A stretch of DNA of 64,000 nt. It comes from Rhodospirillaceae bacterium. Its GTDB lineage: Bacteria > Pseudomonadota > Alphaproteobacteria > Rhodospirillales > JABHCV01. Shown one piece after another: positions 39,686 through 51,247 of this stretch. The DNA is taken from the NCBI GenBank assembly GCA_018662005.1, contig JABJHA010000005.1:1-64000 (forward strand), given 5' to 3'. The notes beneath the pieces were generated by a model, which was given only the letters and a program-made list of their open reading frames with translations, did not search any database and had not been told where the DNA came from. Positions within the stretch are counted from its first letter, which is position 1, and each line of letters opens with the position of its first letter. The position numbers were made by a program, and so were the translations under genes.

Positions 39686-40423
39686 ATGAGCGAAGAAGGT
39701 CAGGAAGAAGCAGGCCAAGAGCCTTCGATGGAAGACATTCTGGCGTCCATTCGCCGGATTCTGTCGGAAGAGGAAGAAGAGGCAGAGGCAGGCGAAGCAG
39801 CCGCTCCGGAAGCTGAGGCTGAGCCGGAAGCCGAACCTGAAGCAGTACCAGAACCGGAACCGGAAGAAGAAGTGGATATGGCCGCCGCCATGGAAGAGGA
39901 GGCGCCTGAAGAAGAAATGGATATGGCCGCCGCCATGGAAGAGGCTGAACCGGAGCCGGAGCCTGAACCCGAAATCGAATTGGCCGAACCGGAGCCGGAA
40001 CCCGAGCCGGAACCAGAACCAGCGCCGGAACCCGAACCCGAACCGATGGCGATGCCTGAGCCGACGGATGTTCTCGAACCGTCGCCACCACCGCCTCCAC
40101 CACCACCACCACCGCCTCAACATACTGGCGATGATGTTCTGGAACTGACCGAGGCGATGATCGCCCCTGCTGATACCCTGCTTTCAGGGCAGACGGTTCA
40201 AATGTCGTCGGATGTGTTGTCTGAACTGGCTCGCGCCATCATGGATCGTCGCGAAATGGGGCTTGGCGACAAGGATGTGACGCTGGAAGGCATGGTCCGC
40301 GAGATGCTGCGTCCGTTGCTGCGTGAGTGGCTCGACCGCAACCTGCCTTACCTGATTGAACGTCTGGTCAAGAAAGAAATCGATAAAATGGTCAACCGGG
40401 CTGAAATGTTCGAAGACCTTTAA
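39686..40423 (+). CDS. PopZ-like polar organising protein (DUF2497)
   Basis: The 245-residue protein has a conserved short N-terminal helix (PSMEDILASIRRILSEEEEE, about 13-32). A long Glu/Pro/Ala-rich linker (about 33-150) contains a proline run (about 131-145). A conserved C-terminal helical domain follows (about 185-245: TLEGMVREMLRPLLREWLDRNL). This is the PopZ layout. PopZ assembles polar condensates that anchor chromosome origins through ParB. The adjoining valS gene matches the Caulobacter arrangement. Confidence 0.92.
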   Translation: MSEEGQEEAGQEPSMEDILASIRRILSEEEEEAEAGEAAAPEAEAEPEAEPEAVPEPEPEEEVDMAAAMEEEAPEEEMDMAAAMEEAEPEPEPEPEIELAEPEPEPEPEPEPAPEPEPEPMAMPEPTDVLEPSPPPPPPPPPPPQHTGDDVLELTEAMIAPADTLLSGQTVQMSSDVLSELARAIMDRREMGLGDKDVTLEGMVREMLRPLLREWLDRNLPYLIERLVKKEIDKMVNRAEMFEDL

Positions 40424-43529: not shown

Positions 43530-44833
43530 TGAAAAAATATCCGTTAATGCCGAAGCGGTCCCCGGTCGTGAAAACGCCAGCATCCGTCATACTTGTTGGA
43601 TTCGCAATTGCCATATTACTGACCGTTCAGGCTTGTTCTGGAATAACTGATATGAATGCGGACGTCAGGTATGCGCCATCCGGACACAACGACAGCGCCC
43701 TATCAATGGAAGGCGGGTTCGACGCCTACCTTGGCCGGACAAAATCCATGATTTCGCGTGCCCGGGTTTTTGAAGACCCGAAACAACGACAACAGGAAAT
43801 CGAATTTAACGCACCGTTTGAAATTCATCCAGATCCGGTCCAGTGCGCCAATCGGCCGCGGCATGGCGTGCTGGTAGTGCATGGATTGTCAGGCTCTCCG
43901 GCCAGTTGGCGGGACCTGTCAGAAGAAATAGCGCAAAACTGTTATCACGTCAGGGCCATCCTGCTGCCGGGACATGGAACCCGACCAGGCGATTTGATCA
44001 ATGTTACCCACGATCAATGGTTGCTATCGACCCGTCAGGCGGTCCGACAAATGAGTAGCGAAGTCGATCAGCTATATGTTGCCGGTTTTTCCATGGGGGC
44101 CACAATTGGGACGTTGTTGGCATATGAGGGAGAGCCCATTGATGGCTTGATTCTGTTATCGCCCGCCTTCCAGGCATTTTCCGGATTGCAATTTCTGGCC
44201 ACCTGGTTGGAACCGTTCATGAATTGGGTTCACCGTGAACCCGGGGAAATGCCGGGCAGATACAGTACTGTTGCGGTCAGTGCAGCTGCGGAATTTCATC
44301 GCCTGACCAAAAGGCTGTCGGATATAGGCCGTGAAGATGCCGAGCTTTCGATTCCTGTATACATGGCGGTCACTTCGGATGATTCAGTGATCGATGTTCC
44401 TTTTGCCTTGCGCGCGTATGATGAGTTTTTGACATCCCCTCATAAACAGATGTTGTTAATAGGGAATCCTGAGGACACCGAAAAATTGCTGAAAAACCAT
44501 CATGATTACCAGATCACAAAGCTTCCCAGTTCTATACCCGATCAGGGGATTTTAAAATTTTCCCATATGGCAATGCCCTTTTCGCCGGGTAATCCCGCTT
44601 ATGGACGCAACGGCATCAGGTCGTGCGGGGACTATTCCGAGGGTTCAAAGGATCATAATTTATGTCTGGCCGCGACGGATATCTATTACACCAACGTGCG
44701 CCTGGAAGATAAGTCTCCCAATCACTTCAAACTTACCTTCAACCCGTATTTTGATGTGCTGTCAGGACAGATCGTCGAATTCCTTGATCGTGTCAGTCAA
44801 GACAAGGCAACACTTCGGCACCGCGTTTTGTAA
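43529..44833 (+). CDS. Alpha/beta hydrolase, probable lipoprotein esterase
   Basis: The 434-residue protein has a basic N-terminus, a hydrophobic segment (about 18-32) and LTVQAC, a weak lipobox, so it may be an anchored lipoprotein. The hydrolase core starts at GVLVVHGLSGSPASWRD (about 112-128). The nucleophile elbow is VAGFSMGA (about 191-198). S33/carboxylesterase-like features continue with LILLSPAF. ATG 43529 with GGAG eight bases upstream was chosen; an ATG at 43508 also lies in frame. It starts on the last base of the amidohydrolase remnant. The substrate is unknown. Confidence 0.85.
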   Translation: MKKYPLMPKRSPVVKTPASVILVGFAIAILLTVQACSGITDMNADVRYAPSGHNDSALSMEGGFDAYLGRTKSMISRARVFEDPKQRQQEIEFNAPFEIHPDPVQCANRPRHGVLVVHGLSGSPASWRDLSEEIAQNCYHVRAILLPGHGTRPGDLINVTHDQWLLSTRQAVRQMSSEVDQLYVAGFSMGATIGTLLAYEGEPIDGLILLSPAFQAFSGLQFLATWLEPFMNWVHREPGEMPGRYSTVAVSAAAEFHRLTKRLSDIGREDAELSIPVYMAVTSDDSVIDVPFALRAYDEFLTSPHKQMLLIGNPEDTEKLLKNHHDYQITKLPSSIPDQGILKFSHMAMPFSPGNPAYGRNGIRSCGDYSEGSKDHNLCLAATDIYYTNVRLEDKSPNHFKLTFNPYFDVLSGQIVEFLDRVSQDKATLRHRVL

Positions 44834-44846
44834 GGGGGATAATCAC

Positions 44847-46484
44847 TCAAGTCGTTTCGGGTTCCATCTCAATCGCACCGCATGGACATTCTGTTGCGCA
44901 CAGGCCGCAGCCCTTGCAGAAGTCGTAAATGAATTCAAAGCGTTTGCCTGGCCCCAGCTTTTTGACCGCGTTGTCGGGGCAGACCCCGTAACAGTTATCG
45001 CATTCAAAGCAATTGCCGCAGGACAGGCAGCGCCGCGCCTCGAACAGGGCGTTGTCTTCATTCAGGTCTCCGATCACTTCATCGAAACTGGTTTGGCGGC
45101 GAATGATGTTGAGTTCTGGCTGCACAGAGGCCGGCGCGTTGTCGTAATACCAGGTGTTGAGGTTTTCATATTCAGCCAGTTTGCCGGTTTCCGGCTTTTC
45201 AAAAACGCCACCGTTCAGCCATGCATCAATGTGCCGGGCCGCTTTTTTGCCGTGCCCGACGGCGACGGTAACGGTGCGTTCAGACGGCACCATATCACCA
45301 CCGGCGAACAGGCCGGGGTAGCCTGTCATCATGGACGCGTCCACATCGACGACGCCGTCCCCGGCGATGACAACGCCCGGCACTTTTTCCAAAAACGAGG
45401 TATCGACGTCTTGTCCAAGAGCCAGAATAAGGGTGTCGGCTTCAAGGGTTTCGATTTCACCGGTCGGTTGCGGACGACCGTCTTCATCAATTTCCATTCT
45501 CTCGACGGTGAACGTGGTCTCGTCAATTTGCTTGATGGTGCGTAGCCAGTGGATCAGTACCCCTTCCTCTTCGGCCTCAGAGGCTTCAAAGTCATGGGCG
45601 GGCATTTCCTTGCGCGAACGCCGGTAAACAATCATCGCCTCGTCGACTCCCAGACGCTTGGCCGTGCGGGCCGCGTCCATGGCTGTGTTGCCGCCGCCAT
45701 AGACGATCACCCGGCGTCCAAGTTTGGGTGGCTCCTCACCAACTTCCATGTCGCGCAGGATGCTGGCAGCATCAAGGATTTTACCGGCGGCGTGGGCCGG
45801 AATGTCGATGCGCTTGGCGAGATGGGCGCCAACGGCGATGAAAACCGCATCAAAGCCTTCCGCTTGGAAGGCGAGCGGAATATCATCGACCTTGCAGTCC
45901 AACTGCATCTCGACACCCATATCGACGATGCGCTGAATTTCTTTATCAAGAATATCACGTGGCAGCCGGTACTTGGGAATGCCGAAACGCATCATGCCAC
46001 CGGCCATCGGTCCGGCCTCGCGAATGGTGACGCTGTGTCCAAGGGTTCGCAGATGATAGGCCGCCGATAATCCGCTTGGACCGGCGCCAACGATCAGCAC
46101 CCGCTTTCCTGTCGAATGATGATCAAATTCCGGTGCCCAGCCGTTCTTTATTGCCTGATCGCCAAGGAAACGCTCGACCGCATGAATGGCGACGGGTTCG
46201 TCAAGGGTGGCCCGGTTGCAGGCGCCCTCGCAGGGATGATAACAGACCCGCCCCATCACCGCTGGCATCGGGTTGTCTTTCATCAGTATTTGCCAGGCCT
46301 TGTGATAGTCGCCTTCCTCGGCATGGTAGAGCCAGCCCTGAATGTTCTCGCCGGCCGGGCAAGTGCTGTTGCAAGGAGGCAGGCGATCCAGATAGACCGG
46401 TTTAAGGGTCCGCCACGAGCCGGTGTGATTGGCCAGCGAGGTGCCGGGGTCAAGGGTAATGGCGAAGGGTAACGGCTTGCTCAT
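44847..46484 (-). CDS. GltD-like NAD(P)H oxidoreductase fused to a 2x[4Fe-4S] ferredoxin
   Basis: The 545-residue protein has an N-terminal GltD-type Fe-S domain (CNSTCPAGENIQG and CYHPCEGACNR, about 39-95). An FAD fold follows (VLIVGAGPSGLSAAYH, about 129-144), then an NADP fold (VIVYGGGNTAMDAARTAKRLG). The C-terminal ferredoxin has clusters CLSCGNCFECDNCYGVCP and CKGCGLCATECPCGAIE (about 488-540). It probably passes electrons between NAD(P)H and the oxidoreductase encoded just upstream, replacing its separate delta (ferredoxin) subunit. It overlaps the beta gene by 4 bases. Confidence 0.9.
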   Translation of the reverse strand: MSKPLPFAITLDPGTSLANHTGSWRTLKPVYLDRLPPCNSTCPAGENIQGWLYHAEEGDYHKAWQILMKDNPMPAVMGRVCYHPCEGACNRATLDEPVAIHAVERFLGDQAIKNGWAPEFDHHSTGKRVLIVGAGPSGLSAAYHLRTLGHSVTIREAGPMAGGMMRFGIPKYRLPRDILDKEIQRIVDMGVEMQLDCKVDDIPLAFQAEGFDAVFIAVGAHLAKRIDIPAHAAGKILDAASILRDMEVGEEPPKLGRRVIVYGGGNTAMDAARTAKRLGVDEAMIVYRRSRKEMPAHDFEASEAEEEGVLIHWLRTIKQIDETTFTVERMEIDEDGRPQPTGEIETLEADTLILALGQDVDTSFLEKVPGVVIAGDGVVDVDASMMTGYPGLFAGGDMVPSERTVTVAVGHGKKAARHIDAWLNGGVFEKPETGKLAEYENLNTWYYDNAPASVQPELNIIRRQTSFDEVIGDLNEDNALFEARRCLSCGNCFECDNCYGVCPDNAVKKLGPGKRFEFIYDFCKGCGLCATECPCGAIEMEPETT

Positions 46485-47497
46485 GACGGCGTCTCCCCAT
46501 CAAGCAACCCAAAGCGCTCGATGTTGTGGTCGGCCATGGCCTGAATGGCGTCGATGCTGTCTTGATCCTTATCATCCTTGGCGAACAGATGGGCGAAGCG
46601 CTTTTGCATTTTCAGATAGTCTTCGACCTGCACCTGGCGGCGAATTTTGCAGACGTTTGTCAGCGCGCCGTGTTCGGCTTCAAACAACGGAAACAAGCCA
46701 CTCTCGACAGCCATTCTGGCGACGCTGATGGTCGCATCCGATGCCGACCCCCACCCTAAGGGACAAGGCACCATAATGTGGATGTAGCGAGAGCCCGATA
46801 TATCCATCGCCTTTGTCACCTTGGCTTCAAGATCGTGAAGGTCGGCAACACTGGCCGTCGCCACATAAGGAATGTTATGGGCCATGGCGATCAGTGGCAG
46901 GTTTTTGCCGGTGCCAAAAACGTTGCCCGGGGCGTCACCAATGGCTTGCGTGGTCGCCGTGCGGGCTGTCGGCGGTGTGGCGCTTGATCGCTGAACACCG
47001 GTATTCATGTAGGCTTCGTTGTCGTAACAGATATAGAGCACATCATCATTGCGCTCGAACATTCCCGACAGGCAGCCAAAGCCGATGTCGGTGGTGCCGC
47101 CGTCACCGCCCTGGGCGACGACCTTGACATCTTTGCGACCCTTGACCCGAAGGGCCGCAGCAACGCCGGTTGCGACGGCTGGGGCATTGCCAAAAAGTGA
47201 ATGCAGCCACGGCAGCTGCCATGATGTTTCCGGATACGGGGTGGTGAAGACTTCCAGACAGCCAGTGGCGTTGACGGCGACAAGTTGACCGTCTGTTGCG
47301 CGCATGGCCGCATCAAGGGCGTAGCGAGCACCCAGCGCCTCGCCGCAACCCTGACAGGCCCTGTGGCCTGATGTTATGGCGTTCGAGCGATCCATGCTGG
47401 CCTGCACGGTCCGCCGGGCGTCATCAAGCAACCGGTTGCCAACGGTGTGGGTGCCGGTTTGATAGAATTTGACGGGCTGGCTTTTCTGATCTGTCAT
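46481..47497 (-). CDS. porB: 2-oxoacid:ferredoxin oxidoreductase beta subunit
   Basis: The 338-residue thiamine-diphosphate-binding subunit has ACQGCGEALGARYALD (cluster cysteines, about 47-62), VNATGCLEVFTTPYP and the TPP motif AQGGDGGTTDIGFG with CYDNEAYMNTG. It lies between alpha and the GltD-like gene with 4-base overlaps at both ends. Pyruvate is the usual substrate of such PorB proteins, but other 2-oxoacids are possible. The symbol reflects the family, not a proven substrate. Confidence 0.92.
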   Translation of the reverse strand: MTDQKSQPVKFYQTGTHTVGNRLLDDARRTVQASMDRSNAITSGHRACQGCGEALGARYALDAAMRATDGQLVAVNATGCLEVFTTPYPETSWQLPWLHSLFGNAPAVATGVAAALRVKGRKDVKVVAQGGDGGTTDIGFGCLSGMFERNDDVLYICYDNEAYMNTGVQRSSATPPTARTATTQAIGDAPGNVFGTGKNLPLIAMAHNIPYVATASVADLHDLEAKVTKAMDISGSRYIHIMVPCPLGWGSASDATISVARMAVESGLFPLFEAEHGALTNVCKIRRQVQVEDYLKMQKRFAHLFAKDDKDQDSIDAIQAMADHNIERFGLLDGETPS

Positions 47498-48741
47498 TTT
47501 TTTATCCCGCCTGCTTTTTGGCGCAGAATATTTTCAGCCTTCGGGCCGGAACGCCGCGTCCTGCGGGCGCGAACGATTTCATGTTCGACGGCGCTGTGGT
47601 CAAGGTCGAGGAACTGAAGATCGGGCAAGCGGTCTTCCCCGGCAGCCTCGAAGACTTCCTGTAATGATGTCATGGTGATGGTCCGGCCACCCAGACCGGC
47701 AATCACCGTATAGACCGGAAGCGTTACCCCGCGCAGGGCCATGCGAACGTTGGAAGCGACGACCCCACCCAGACCCGGGGCCAGGCTTTTCTCGATAACC
47801 ACGACACGCTTTGCATTCTTCAGGGCGTCTTGCAATTCATCAAGCGGGAAGGGTCTGAACGAACAGATGCTGACGGAGCCGATAGCGGTCCCGTCCTCAC
47901 GCATGGTGTCGATAACTTCCTTGATGGTGCCATTAACCGAACCAAGCGCCACGACGATGGTTTCTGCATCTTCGGTTTTGTACTGATGAATAAGGCCACC
48001 TGATTCCCGCCCGAACACCTGCCTGAAGACATTGCCGATTTCCGGGATCAGTTTCAGCGCCTGTAGTTGGGTGTCGTTGGCCAGATAGCGAACTTCGGTG
48101 AAGGCTTCCGGGCCAACCATGGCGCCGATGGAGTAGGGGTCATCGGGATCGAGCATTTGTACCGGATCAAAGGCGGGCAGAAAGGCATCGACATCTTGCT
48201 GGCTTGGCATGTCGAGGCGTTCGTAGGCGTGAGTCAGGATGAACCCGTCCATGCAAACCATAACCGGGCAGCTTAGTTCTTCCGCCAGCCGGAAAGCCTG
48301 AATGTGCAGGTCGAGGGCTTCCTGATTGGTTTCGGCGTACAGTTGAATCCAACCCGCGTCGCGCATGGACATGCTGTCGGAATGATCATTCCAGATGTTG
48401 ATGGGCGCACCGATGGCCCGGTTGCCGATGGTCATGACGATGGGCAGGCCCAGTCCGGCGGTGTTGTAGACGGCCTCGGCCATAAACAGTAGACCCTGAC
48501 TGGCTGTCGCCGTATAGGTTCTGGCCCCGGCAGCAGACGCGCCGATGGCGACGGAAAGGGCCGCGAATTCGGACTCGACGTTGATGAATTCACAATTCTC
48601 GAGGCTACCGTCCTTGACCAGCGCACCGACTCCCTCGACGATGTGGGTCTGGGGCGTAATCGGATAGGCACAGACGACTTCCGGTCTACACAGGGCCACG
48701 GCCTGGGCGACGGCCTCTGATCCTTCCATTTGTTTCAACAT
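47494..48741 (-). CDS. porA: 2-oxoacid:ferredoxin oxidoreductase alpha subunit
   Basis: The 415-residue protein begins with the pyrimidine-binding domain (MEGSEAVAQAVALCRPEVV, AYPITPQTHIVE, INVESEFAALSVAIGAS). A transketolase-C-like domain II follows (about 255-380, VVALGSVNGTIKEVID). These are the PorA hallmarks. It starts 5 bases after the gamma stop and overlaps the beta start by 4 bases, so subunits are co-translated. A basic tail ends the protein. Confidence 0.93.
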   Translation of the reverse strand: MLKQMEGSEAVAQAVALCRPEVVCAYPITPQTHIVEGVGALVKDGSLENCEFINVESEFAALSVAIGASAAGARTYTATASQGLLFMAEAVYNTAGLGLPIVMTIGNRAIGAPINIWNDHSDSMSMRDAGWIQLYAETNQEALDLHIQAFRLAEELSCPVMVCMDGFILTHAYERLDMPSQQDVDAFLPAFDPVQMLDPDDPYSIGAMVGPEAFTEVRYLANDTQLQALKLIPEIGNVFRQVFGRESGGLIHQYKTEDAETIVVALGSVNGTIKEVIDTMREDGTAIGSVSICSFRPFPLDELQDALKNAKRVVVIEKSLAPGLGGVVASNVRMALRGVTLPVYTVIAGLGGRTITMTSLQEVFEAAGEDRLPDLQFLDLDHSAVEHEIVRARRTRRSGPKAENILRQKAGGIKK

Positions 48742-48746
48742 GACTT

Positions 48747-49307
48747 CTAGGCCTCCCTGGCCAGATCGAAGGCTTCGCGGGCTGCGGCAATATTGGCTTC
48801 ACCGATGGGCCCCGGGAATTTCTCGGTAATGGCTTTGGCCACCGCGTCCATGTGTAATTGCCCCGAAATGGCGGCGAACGCGCCAAGCAGGACAGCGTTG
48901 GGAACGGCACGCCCCACGTGTTTCATGGCCAGTTCCGTGGCCCCGATATGACAGACATGATGGGGTGGGAATTTTGCCACGTAATCCAAAATGCCCAGAT
49001 CATCGAAACTGCGGGCTGAATTAATGACGATGAAACCACCCGGTTTTAAGCCCTGAAAAACGTCGATGGAATGCAGCAGGGTGGTGTCCTGAATGATCAG
49101 GGCGTCGGGCTCCATGATCGGTTCGCGCAGGCGGATTTCCTTGTCATCTATACGGCAGAACGAGACCACCGGCGCGCCCATGCGTTCCGAACCGAAGCTC
49201 GGAAATGCCTGTGCGTGCTTGCCTTCGATGAAGGCCGCCACGGACATCAGTTCGGCGGCAGTGACGACGCCTTGTCCGCCCCTGCCGTGGATGCGTATCT
49301 GGAAAAT
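48747..49307 (-). CDS. porG: 2-oxoacid:ferredoxin oxidoreductase gamma subunit, ATT start
   Basis: The gamma domain protein has 186 residues if started at ATT 49307, reading MFQIRIHGRGGQGVVTAAEL before the first internal ATG (49247). The glycine loop GRGGQGVVTA is essential to the fold and lies before any ATG, GTG or TTG in frame. An in-frame TGA stands a few codons further upstream. GGGAGG is placed 5 bases before the ATT. Later motifs are FPSFGSERMGAPV and INSARSFDDLG. It is the first gene of the gamma-alpha-beta-GltD operon. Confidence 0.88.
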   Translation of the reverse strand: MFQIRIHGRGGQGVVTAAELMSVAAFIEGKHAQAFPSFGSERMGAPVVSFCRIDDKEIRLREPIMEPDALIIQDTTLLHSIDVFQGLKPGGFIVINSARSFDDLGILDYVAKFPPHHVCHIGATELAMKHVGRAVPNAVLLGAFAAISGQLHMDAVAKAITEKFPGPIGEANIAAAREAFDLAREA

Positions 49308-49430
49308 ATCAACCTCCCGATTGCCTCAAAAAAGCATGTTCGGTTCCATGGTCAATCTATCATTGGCGTATCAGGCTTTCCTTGATATTGATCAACGTCT
49401 TATTTCTGTTCCTGATTGGGGGCGTCACTT

Positions 49431-50762
49431 ATGGTTACACGACCGATTGCTGAAAAAGCCTGGTTGCCCGATGATAGTCGGGCCGTTATTGCCGATCTGG
49501 AGGGGCCGCTGATGGCAGGCTCCTTCGATGATATCGACGCCCGCGTTATGGACTTGATCGACAGTCACGAACGCCACATGGATGTTGAAACCATCGGCCT
49601 GAATGCCGGAACGAATGTTATGAACCCGCGTGCCGCGGCACTGCTAGGGCGTTCACTTGGCAATCGACCCAGTCTGGGCTTTCCCGGCGATAAATACGAA
49701 ATGGGAATGCAACATGCCGAAAAGCTGGAAATAACCTGTGAGTCGCTGGTTAAAAAACTGTTCGAGGCGCCATTTGCCGAAATCAGGGTGCCTTCAGGTG
49801 CCATCGCCAACCTGTACACCTTCATGGCGACGTGCAAAGCCGGTGACGCGATTATGGCGTTCCCCGGTGAAATGGGTGGCCACGTTACCCATCACAGTGC
49901 CGGATGTGCGGGCCTTTACGGGCTCGATATCCATCCCGTTCCCTATGACGCCGCCCGCATGACCATTGATCTGGAGCGCCTGGCCAAGGAAGCCCGACGC
50001 ATTAAACCGAAGCTGATCACCCTGGCCGGGTCGTTGTGCCTGTTTCCCTATCCGGTCGCCGAGGTGCGCGCTATTGCAGATGAGGTCGGGGCGTATGTGC
50101 TTTACGACGCCGCCCACATGGGTGGCATGATCGCCGGCAAGCGCTTTCAGGACCCGCTAAGGGAAGGCGCCCACCTGATGACCATGTCCACGTACAAAGC
50201 GTTCGGTGGTCCTCCCTCGGGATTACTTGTCTCGGCCGATGAAGAATTGGCCCGGCGCATTGACGCCATCGCCTTTCCCGGCATGACCGCCAATTTTGAT
50301 TTGGGCAAGACGGCGGCGTTGTTGATGAGCGTCCTTGATTTGCTGGAATATGGCGAAACCTATGCCGATACCTGTCTTTCAAATGCGAAAAGTTTGGCCA
50401 AAGCGCTTGAGGCCGAAGGGTTTGCCGTTCACGGTGTTGACGGGCAGGGGCATACGCAAAGTCACCACCTGGCCCTGCACGCAGCTCCCTTGGGCGGCGG
50501 CCAGGCGGCATCAAAAAGACTGGCCGAAGCCAACATCCTGCTCTGTGGCATTGGCCTGCCCATTGATCCGGTGGAAGGCGACCTCAACGGTATTCGTATC
50601 GGCACCCAGGAGATCACCCGTCAGGGCATGGGGGCAAATGCCATGGCCGAAATTGCCCGTCTGATGGCGCGTCTCTGGCTGCACGGGGAGCGCGCCGAGG
50701 CTGTGCGCAAGGACGTTATCGATTTCCGGCGTGGGTACCAGGAATTGGTGTTTGTGAGATAG
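49431..50762 (+). CDS. Serine hydroxymethyltransferase-like PLP enzyme
   Basis: This 443-residue type I PLP enzyme resembles SHMT in overall layout: SLGFPGDKYEMGMQHAEKLE, VPSGAIANLYTFMATCKAG and YVLYDAAHMGGMIAGK. The PLP lysine is in MSTYKAFGGPPSG (about residue 256), where SHMT has a TTHK-like motif. It is probably a paralogue acting on a modified serine, glycine or related amino acid, not the housekeeping GlyA. ATG 49431 was chosen over TTG 49416. It is divergent from the oxidoreductase operon, with a 123-base shared promoter region. Confidence 0.8.
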   Translation: MVTRPIAEKAWLPDDSRAVIADLEGPLMAGSFDDIDARVMDLIDSHERHMDVETIGLNAGTNVMNPRAAALLGRSLGNRPSLGFPGDKYEMGMQHAEKLEITCESLVKKLFEAPFAEIRVPSGAIANLYTFMATCKAGDAIMAFPGEMGGHVTHHSAGCAGLYGLDIHPVPYDAARMTIDLERLAKEARRIKPKLITLAGSLCLFPYPVAEVRAIADEVGAYVLYDAAHMGGMIAGKRFQDPLREGAHLMTMSTYKAFGGPPSGLLVSADEELARRIDAIAFPGMTANFDLGKTAALLMSVLDLLEYGETYADTCLSNAKSLAKALEAEGFAVHGVDGQGHTQSHHLALHAAPLGGGQAASKRLAEANILLCGIGLPIDPVEGDLNGIRIGTQEITRQGMGANAMAEIARLMARLWLHGERAEAVRKDVIDFRRGYQELVFVR

Positions 50763-50902
50763 GCTTTGTTATTCCATTGAACATGGACTCCTCCAATGGT
50801 TTAAGTTTAGAATTCCTCTAACTAGTGAGGAGCAGTTCCGACCTAGCCTGCAAATCACCACGAGCCATAACACGCGCTGGGTCAATTCCGGGGGAGGTTC
50901 AC

Positions 50903-51247
50903 ATGGCTATTTTTATTGTCCAAGGCTGCTATTCCCAAGCGTCGATTATCGGCATGATCAACAAACCCGAAGACCGTTCTATCGCCGTCGCCAAACTGGC
51001 GAAAGCCGTTGGTGGGAAATTACTGGATTATTACGTCACTTTTGGTGAGTACGATTTCACCGTCATTATTGAAGGCGGTCGGGGAAAAAGTGAAGCCGAT
51101 ATGATGGCGGCGTCGATGGCGGCCGCAGCGTCGGGCGGGGTCACCAACCTTAAGACCACGGTCGGCATCAGATCAAAAGATTCCATGAAAGCCATGCGCG
51201 CGGCCAAGAAGGTGCTTAAAGGGTTTAGTGCTGCTGGCTCTGGCTAG
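50903..51247 (+). CDS. GYD-domain protein
   Basis: The 114-residue protein has the dimeric alpha-beta barrel GYD pattern: IFIVQGCYSQASIIGMINKPEDR, LLDYYVTFGEYDFTVIIEG, and MMAASMAAAASGGVTNLKT. The family function is unknown. ATG 50903 follows GGGGGAGG and fits the family start; the frame is open upstream. It lies 140 bases after the SHMT-like gene and could share its transcript. Confidence 0.88.
   Translation: MAIFIVQGCYSQASIIGMINKPEDRSIAVAKLAKAVGGKLLDYYVTFGEYDFTVIIEGGRGKSEADMMAASMAAAASGGVTNLKTTVGIRSKDSMKAMRAAKKVLKGFSAAGSG

Follow-up and report, generated by a model that had tools for sequence, protein, structure and literature searches.

Only two of the three bases of an AUU codon pair with the initiator anticodon, and the resulting complexes are selected against by IF3; among bacteria few AUU-started genes are documented, pcnB being one of them. 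The infC gene, which encodes IF3 and whose weak start closes an autoregulatory loop, begins with AUU in E. coli and with ATC in Streptomyces (PMC5472188), and with AUA in S. aureus (PMC13009471). The initial annotation of the locus described here, which proposed an ATT start for the gamma gene of a 2-oxoacid oxidoreductase, named infC as the known case, and this holds for infC itself while being incomplete as a list, since rare starts are also found in pncA, cvfC1, ccpN and sigR and the infC genes of the same order apparently start at ATA or ATC. The AUU start of Borrelia burgdorferi pncA (bbe22) is reported as experimentally established (PMC13398362), the starts of S. aureus cvfC1 (AUU) and ccpN (AUA) are reported to have been shown by Ribo-Ret and reporters (PMC13009471), and the GTC start of Streptomyces sigR is reported to be repressed by IF3, as tested experimentally (PMC5472188).

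The gamma gene shares with infC an AUH start and the retention of a rare start among relatives, but it encodes a metabolic enzyme subunit with no autoregulatory loop, and its codon is ATT rather than the ATA or ATC apparent in its own order. Self-limitation, which had been put forward as usual for ATT initiation, applies to infC because that gene encodes IF3. As its report presents it, pncA resembles gamma: its product is a metabolic enzyme that requires an N-terminus encoded ahead of the annotated start and translated from AUU, and databases list a truncated protein. Unlike that of pncA, the gamma start is supported by comparison, but in seven genomes and three clades. The two S. aureus genes, going by what is reported of them, have a conserved non-canonical start and an extended Shine-Dalgarno sequence, as gamma does, and cvfC1 is likewise the first gene of its operon, although both are Firmicute genes for unrelated proteins. 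The likeness to sigR, by the account given of it, lies in the pairing of a rare start codon with a partner that is produced in excess, although the codon is GTC, not ATT, and the product a sigma factor. No AUU start of a 2-oxoacid oxidoreductase was seen in the titles and abstract openings among the literature matches listed.

The window, by which we mean the whole stretch of 64,000 nucleotides that was analysed, carries a four-gene operon in which gamma comes first, followed by alpha, beta and a GltD-like/delta gene (Table 1). Gamma matches PF01558 (POR) over profile positions 1-173 of 173 (E 8.8e-41) and TIGR02175 (PorC_KorC) with 197 bits against a cut-off of 81.1, and the partner genes expected of a PorC/KorC protein, namely alpha, beta and a delta-type 4Fe-4S domain, are all present in the operon. 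The GltD-like subunit scores above the cut-offs for NF009410 and TIGR02179. None of the substrate-specific NCBIfam equivalog cut-offs (pyruvate, phenylglyoxylate, oxalate and others) was reached by gamma, alpha or beta, including those of the phenylglyoxylate equivalogs PadE/PadG/PadI, and the best NCBIfam scores of the three, below the equivalog cut-off, were those of pyruvate enzymes. The predicted product of the operon is a pyruvate/2-oxoacid oxidoreductase that includes an FAD/NAD(P)-type subunit. The gamma stop codon is TAG (48749-48747, minus strand), the alpha ATG follows 5 nt past it, and alpha overlaps beta, and beta the delta gene, by 4 nt each. Since alpha has its own ATG and, as read by eye, its own GGGAGG 10 nt before it, translational coupling of gamma to alpha is only possible. 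The divergent neighbor at 49416-50762 (plus strand) matches SHMT (PF00464), and a GYD-domain protein (PF08734) follows at 50897-51247 (plus strand).

Table 1 Features of the gamma locus and its operon in the window
Feature	Coordinates	Strand	Remarks
FNR-type box TTGATCAATATCAA (perfect)	49382-49395	minus	predicted transcript start ~49347, 40-nt leader
Predicted -10 element TAGATT	49354-49359	minus	TANNNT at fixed offset from box
Mini-ORF ATG CTT TTT TGA, in gamma frame	49326-49337	minus	ends 18 nt before ATT; identical in sister
Shine-Dalgarno GGGAGG	49313-49318	minus	5 nt (TTGAT) before ATT; duplex energy -11.5 kcal/mol
ATT start codon (proposed)	49305-49307	minus	homologous to relatives' ATG/GTG; also in sister (G001/L036) and five further genomes
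Gamma gene, pyruvate/2-oxoacid oxidoreductase (predicted), 186 codons + stop, proposed AUU start	48747-49307	minus	POR and TIGR02175 matches
Alpha subunit, ATG start	47494-48741	minus	PF01855, PF17147
Beta subunit (TPP-binding)	46481-47497	minus	PF02775
GltD-like FAD/NAD(P)-binding subunit with C-terminal 4Fe-4S delta-type domain	44847-46484	minus	PF07992, PF14691

On the minus strand, the gamma frame reads TGA GGC AAT CGG GAG GTT GAT ATT TTC CAG ATA CGC ATC and continues with CAC GGC AGG GGC GGA CAA GGC, which gives the glycine loop GRGGQG. The TGA at 49328-49326 closes the frame upstream of the ATT, no ATG, GTG or TTG stands in frame between this TGA and the loop, and the first in-frame ATG, at 49247, lies downstream of it. 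The initial annotation had therefore read the frame exactly, both in placing the glycine loop upstream of the first ATG and in finding no canonical start before it and an ATT 5 nt past GGGAGG. Its proposal that the ATT would give the family's usual N-terminus agrees with the alignment of this codon with the ATG or GTG of relatives and with a solved homologue, chain E of 9bt4 (pyruvate:ferredoxin oxidoreductase gamma), whose residue 3 aligns with gamma residue 3, so that the N-terminus is in register. Gene callers limited to ATG, GTG and TTG would cut gamma by 20 residues, and the glycine loop would be lost.

The start codon was compared among close relatives, as the initial annotation had proposed, and ATT stands at this codon in six other genomes, the sister and five more. 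The sister, NIOZ-UU42 (G001; contigs L003/L036), whose protein is 95% identical in amino acids, shares with the window the ATT, the GGGAGG and the closing TGA and likewise has no other start, and three outgroups (G005, G025, G006) have ATG at exactly the ATT codon. In a contig search of genomes, from which the best 80 of 227 relatives' loci were kept, the aligned codon was ATG in 63, GTG in 9, ATT in 3, CTA in 4 and CTG in 1, and all five CTA/CTG loci in these best 80 have ATG immediately before. A search of the order returned 317 genomes, 23 of them with an orthologue at E <= 1e-50, and ATT was found in seven of these 23 (the window's own, G000, together with G001, G066, G072, G073, G080 and G081, where G066 is locus L069 and G073 is L064). 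Of 385 genomes sampled evenly across the class, 10 had an orthologue, one being the window's own genome and the other nine all having ATG. Removal of 11 exact duplicates from 103 loci left 92, and the nine class-sample loci, which share no tested 90-base piece with the 92, brought the set to 101 distinct loci. These start at ATG (78), GTG (11), an ATG one codon upstream (5) or ATT (7), and none at ATC, ATA, CTG, ACG or TTG. Nine more distant homologues (L008-L016, 44-47% identical) have ATG in eight cases and GTG in one, and the nine records matched in a plasmid collection were all below 60% identity.

The seven ATT loci are not equally clear. Between the upstream stop and the loop there is no canonical in-frame start in the window's own genome, the sister, G080 and G081, the upstream stop in G080 lying only four codons before the ATT. 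The ATT is less certain in G066, G072 and G073 because canonical starts are present in frame upstream: a TTG at -23 in G066, a GTG at -11 and a TTG at -6 in G073, and an ATG at -14 with GTG at -13 and -10 in G072. In these three, the ATT is nevertheless preceded at 4-5 nt by a GGGAGG or GGGGG, and the peptides that the upstream starts would add look mutually unlike, as judged by eye.

Three other accounts of the N-terminus were weighed against initiation at the ATT. A sequencing or assembly error would need a change of one base from ATG, and the genome is a draft of 53 contigs; this explanation, raised in the initial annotation as one that could overturn its reading, has almost nothing left to it, since the sister species, with a protein 95% identical, has the same ATT in its own contig (L036/L003), and five further genomes have it at the same codon. 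A short gamma initiated at ATG 49247 (residue 21) would use the first canonical start in frame, but it would be without GRGGQG, which is present in all 80 of the best 80 of 227 loci, and would begin 20 residues after the starts of relatives; moreover, residue 21 is Leu in G005 and the solved homologue keeps the N-terminus, all of which makes such a start highly improbable.

Recoding is just as hard to credit. It would mean that ribosomes start on the in-frame ATG 49337 and read through the TGA, or that they shift in from another frame. The idea is prompted by the mini-ORF, which has the same sequence in the sister and already shares the gamma frame, for which reason a frameshift would be of no help to ATG 49337. 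By eye, this ATG is without a strong Shine-Dalgarno sequence and the stretches of upstream DNA inspected at the other ATT loci are without this arrangement, and no Rfam match was found in 44500-50800. An upstream start joined by a frameshift, the other refuting case considered earlier, is needed by none of the 101 loci, each of which has an in-frame start at or next to the aligned codon (94 canonical, 7 ATT). Frameshift and readthrough were rejected, with neither a need nor a signal for them found. Initiation at the ATT is strongly supported by the same codon in the sister, its presence in three clades, its homologous position, a good Shine-Dalgarno sequence and the lack of an alternative at four of the seven loci, and the AUU at 49307-49305 is very probably the start of gamma. 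Judged from these comparisons, the ATT is a real feature and not a chance occurrence.

On a maximum-likelihood tree of the 92 proteins, built with the first residue removed, ATT occurs in three clades, {own, G001}, {G081, G080} and {G066, G073, G072}, and requires three changes, at least two of which are forced by well-supported branches; the G081-G080 pair has support of 92/79, under the starred level. A grouping of all seven ATT loci in a single clade, named after seeing the data, was rejected (AU p = 0.016). The three changes could alternatively represent fewer gains with losses. Start codons changed 11 times over four states on this tree, with ATG, GTG and ATT interchanging. The ATT was kept over four-fold site differences of 0.20 between the window's genome and the sister, 0.67 between G081 and G080 and 0.37-0.53 within the third clade, although, taken alone, the persistence of a third-position T inside each clade would be no surprise. 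Within this order, a single metabolic gene has apparently switched to AUU two or three times, and no ATT was seen in its operon neighbor.

The alpha genes of the same operons served as a control: in the 79 of 92 loci that could be parsed (11 were unparsed and 2 had no downstream DNA), alpha starts at ATG in 75, GTG in 3, TTG in 1 and ATT in none, so that ATT is not a general habit of these operons. The sole TTG among the parsed alpha genes is that of L117, from G081, a genome whose gamma has ATT. For infC of the same order (L134-L163, L173-L182), 19 of 30 loci were parsed by pattern, and the codon at the conserved N-terminus is ATA in 16 and ATC in 3; a further 9 of 10 regions, read by eye, gave ATA in 6 and ATC in 3. 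No canonical codon precedes the conserved GPR motif in frame in 8 of the 19 parsed loci, and in the others an ATG follows the AUH codon or a canonical codon precedes it. A TAA stands immediately before the ATA in G001, G002 and G070. In three of the seven ATT genomes (G081, G001 and G066) infC was read, each time with ATA, and no infC match was found in the window's own genome. The infC of this order therefore seems to start at ATA or ATC, which makes it plausible that AUH starts work in its cells; gene callers could misplace or truncate infC, and a search for further AUH-started genes in the order may be merited.

Shine-Dalgarno duplex energies at the seven ATT loci range from -8.6 to -11.6 kcal/mol, all of them good. 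Compared with the 16 canonical loci of the same order, which is the fairest set, the median is -10.5 versus -8.05 kcal/mol, a difference that is not significant (p = 0.057). The p-value is lower when the comparison takes in the 85 canonical loci of the whole set (p = 0.042) or 20 alphaproteobacterial loci picked by hand, with some order members left out (p = 0.010), and all of these p-values are optimistic because the rows are related. Compensation of the ATT by a stronger Shine-Dalgarno sequence is at most suggested by these values. The weaker comparison leaves the odds of the AUU start unchanged because AUU initiation does not rest on it.

In the class II layout of FNR/CRP promoters, a TTGAT-N4-ATCAA box is centered about 41.5 nt before the transcript start and is accompanied by a fitting -10 element. 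The box upstream of gamma, TTGATCAATATCAA at 49395-49382, is a perfect FNR-type box. Within the 200 nt upstream, 33 of the 92 loci have a box with one mismatch or none, versus 0.7 expected from shuffles, and under a looser definition 61 of the 92 have a box; in 15 of these 61, TANNNT follows the box at a distance of exactly 23 nt, compared with a mean of 1.08 per offset, and the combination of box and TANNNT at this offset points to the class II layout. The operon lies behind a predicted FNR-type class II promoter and is probably switched on at low oxygen. Among the ATT loci, the window's own, G001, G073 and G066 have an FNR-type box with a -10 element, the best box of G072 is without a fitting -10 while a second, weaker site, picked by eye, has one, and no FNR-type box was found upstream of gamma in G080 and G081. 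Similar boxes precede gamma in many alpha- and betaproteobacterial loci.

Over the 88 nt from the box to the ATT, the window and its sister differ at 5 positions compared with 18 of 88 four-fold sites of the gamma gene (p = 0.006). A conserved RNA structure in the gamma leader was not supported, the z-scores being -0.81 in the window and 0.89 in the sister with differing folds. The mini-ORF within this leader is a possible reinitiation leader in the window's genus.

Initiation at gamma would proceed by the strong Shine-Dalgarno helix placing the initiator tRNA on the AUU, giving a product that begins fMet-Phe-Gln-Ile-Arg-Ile-His-Gly-Arg-Gly-Gly-Gln-Gly, the normal start of the family. Compared with AUG, an AUU start would initiate less efficiently and be disfavored by IF3, with the strong Shine-Dalgarno sequence partly offsetting the weak codon. 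The output of gamma, the first subunit, would thereby be capped, and perhaps that of the downstream genes also, in an operon that low oxygen probably induces through the FNR-type promoter. The suggestion in the initial annotation that the start could tune the whole coupled operon has the standing of an analogy. In poor medium, the yield from non-canonical starts of S. aureus is reported as about 10% of that from AUG (PMC13009471), and in a reconstituted system more IF3 is reported to lower the full-length fraction for AUU/CAU, down to 31.1% (PMC10158994).

Whether the weak codon is selected for this effect becomes a testable question through its repeated appearance in gamma. Repeated selection may have made the AUU into an IF3-read throttle on the gene that opens an FNR-induced operon, whose output would then follow both oxygen and the state of the initiation machinery, with the mini-ORF perhaps adding reinitiation control in the window's genus; if true, AUU would have been recruited convergently for regulation in a gene other than those of translation factors, but we regard this as rather unlikely. 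A nearly neutral codon, with a strong Shine-Dalgarno sequence and low demand sufficing and no regulatory role, has somewhat less than an even chance and is slightly favored over selected regulation; it is compatible with initiation at AUU and competes with tuning alone. The interchange of ATG, GTG and ATT along the tree fits such tolerance, as does the good Shine-Dalgarno sequence at seven of seven ATT loci. Against it, a genome-wide reconstruction reported that AUG switched to AUU in 1 of 61,358 ancestral AUG starts (PMC5622118), yet three changes are seen in gamma alone; GUG switched to AUU in 1 among 5,080 ancestral GUG starts (PMC5622118), and this reconstruction, which we infer to rest on annotated starts, may undercount AUU switches. 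The absence of ATT from the 79 parsed alpha genes also speaks against near neutrality, as does the appearance in gamma of ATT alone and not of ATC or ATA.

Elsewhere in the window, the open-reading frame at 39686-40423 (plus strand) encodes a protein in which a long repeat stretch is rich in Glu, Ala and Pro and poly-proline also occurs, and the gene just downstream is presumably that of a valyl-tRNA synthetase, from the look of its sequence.
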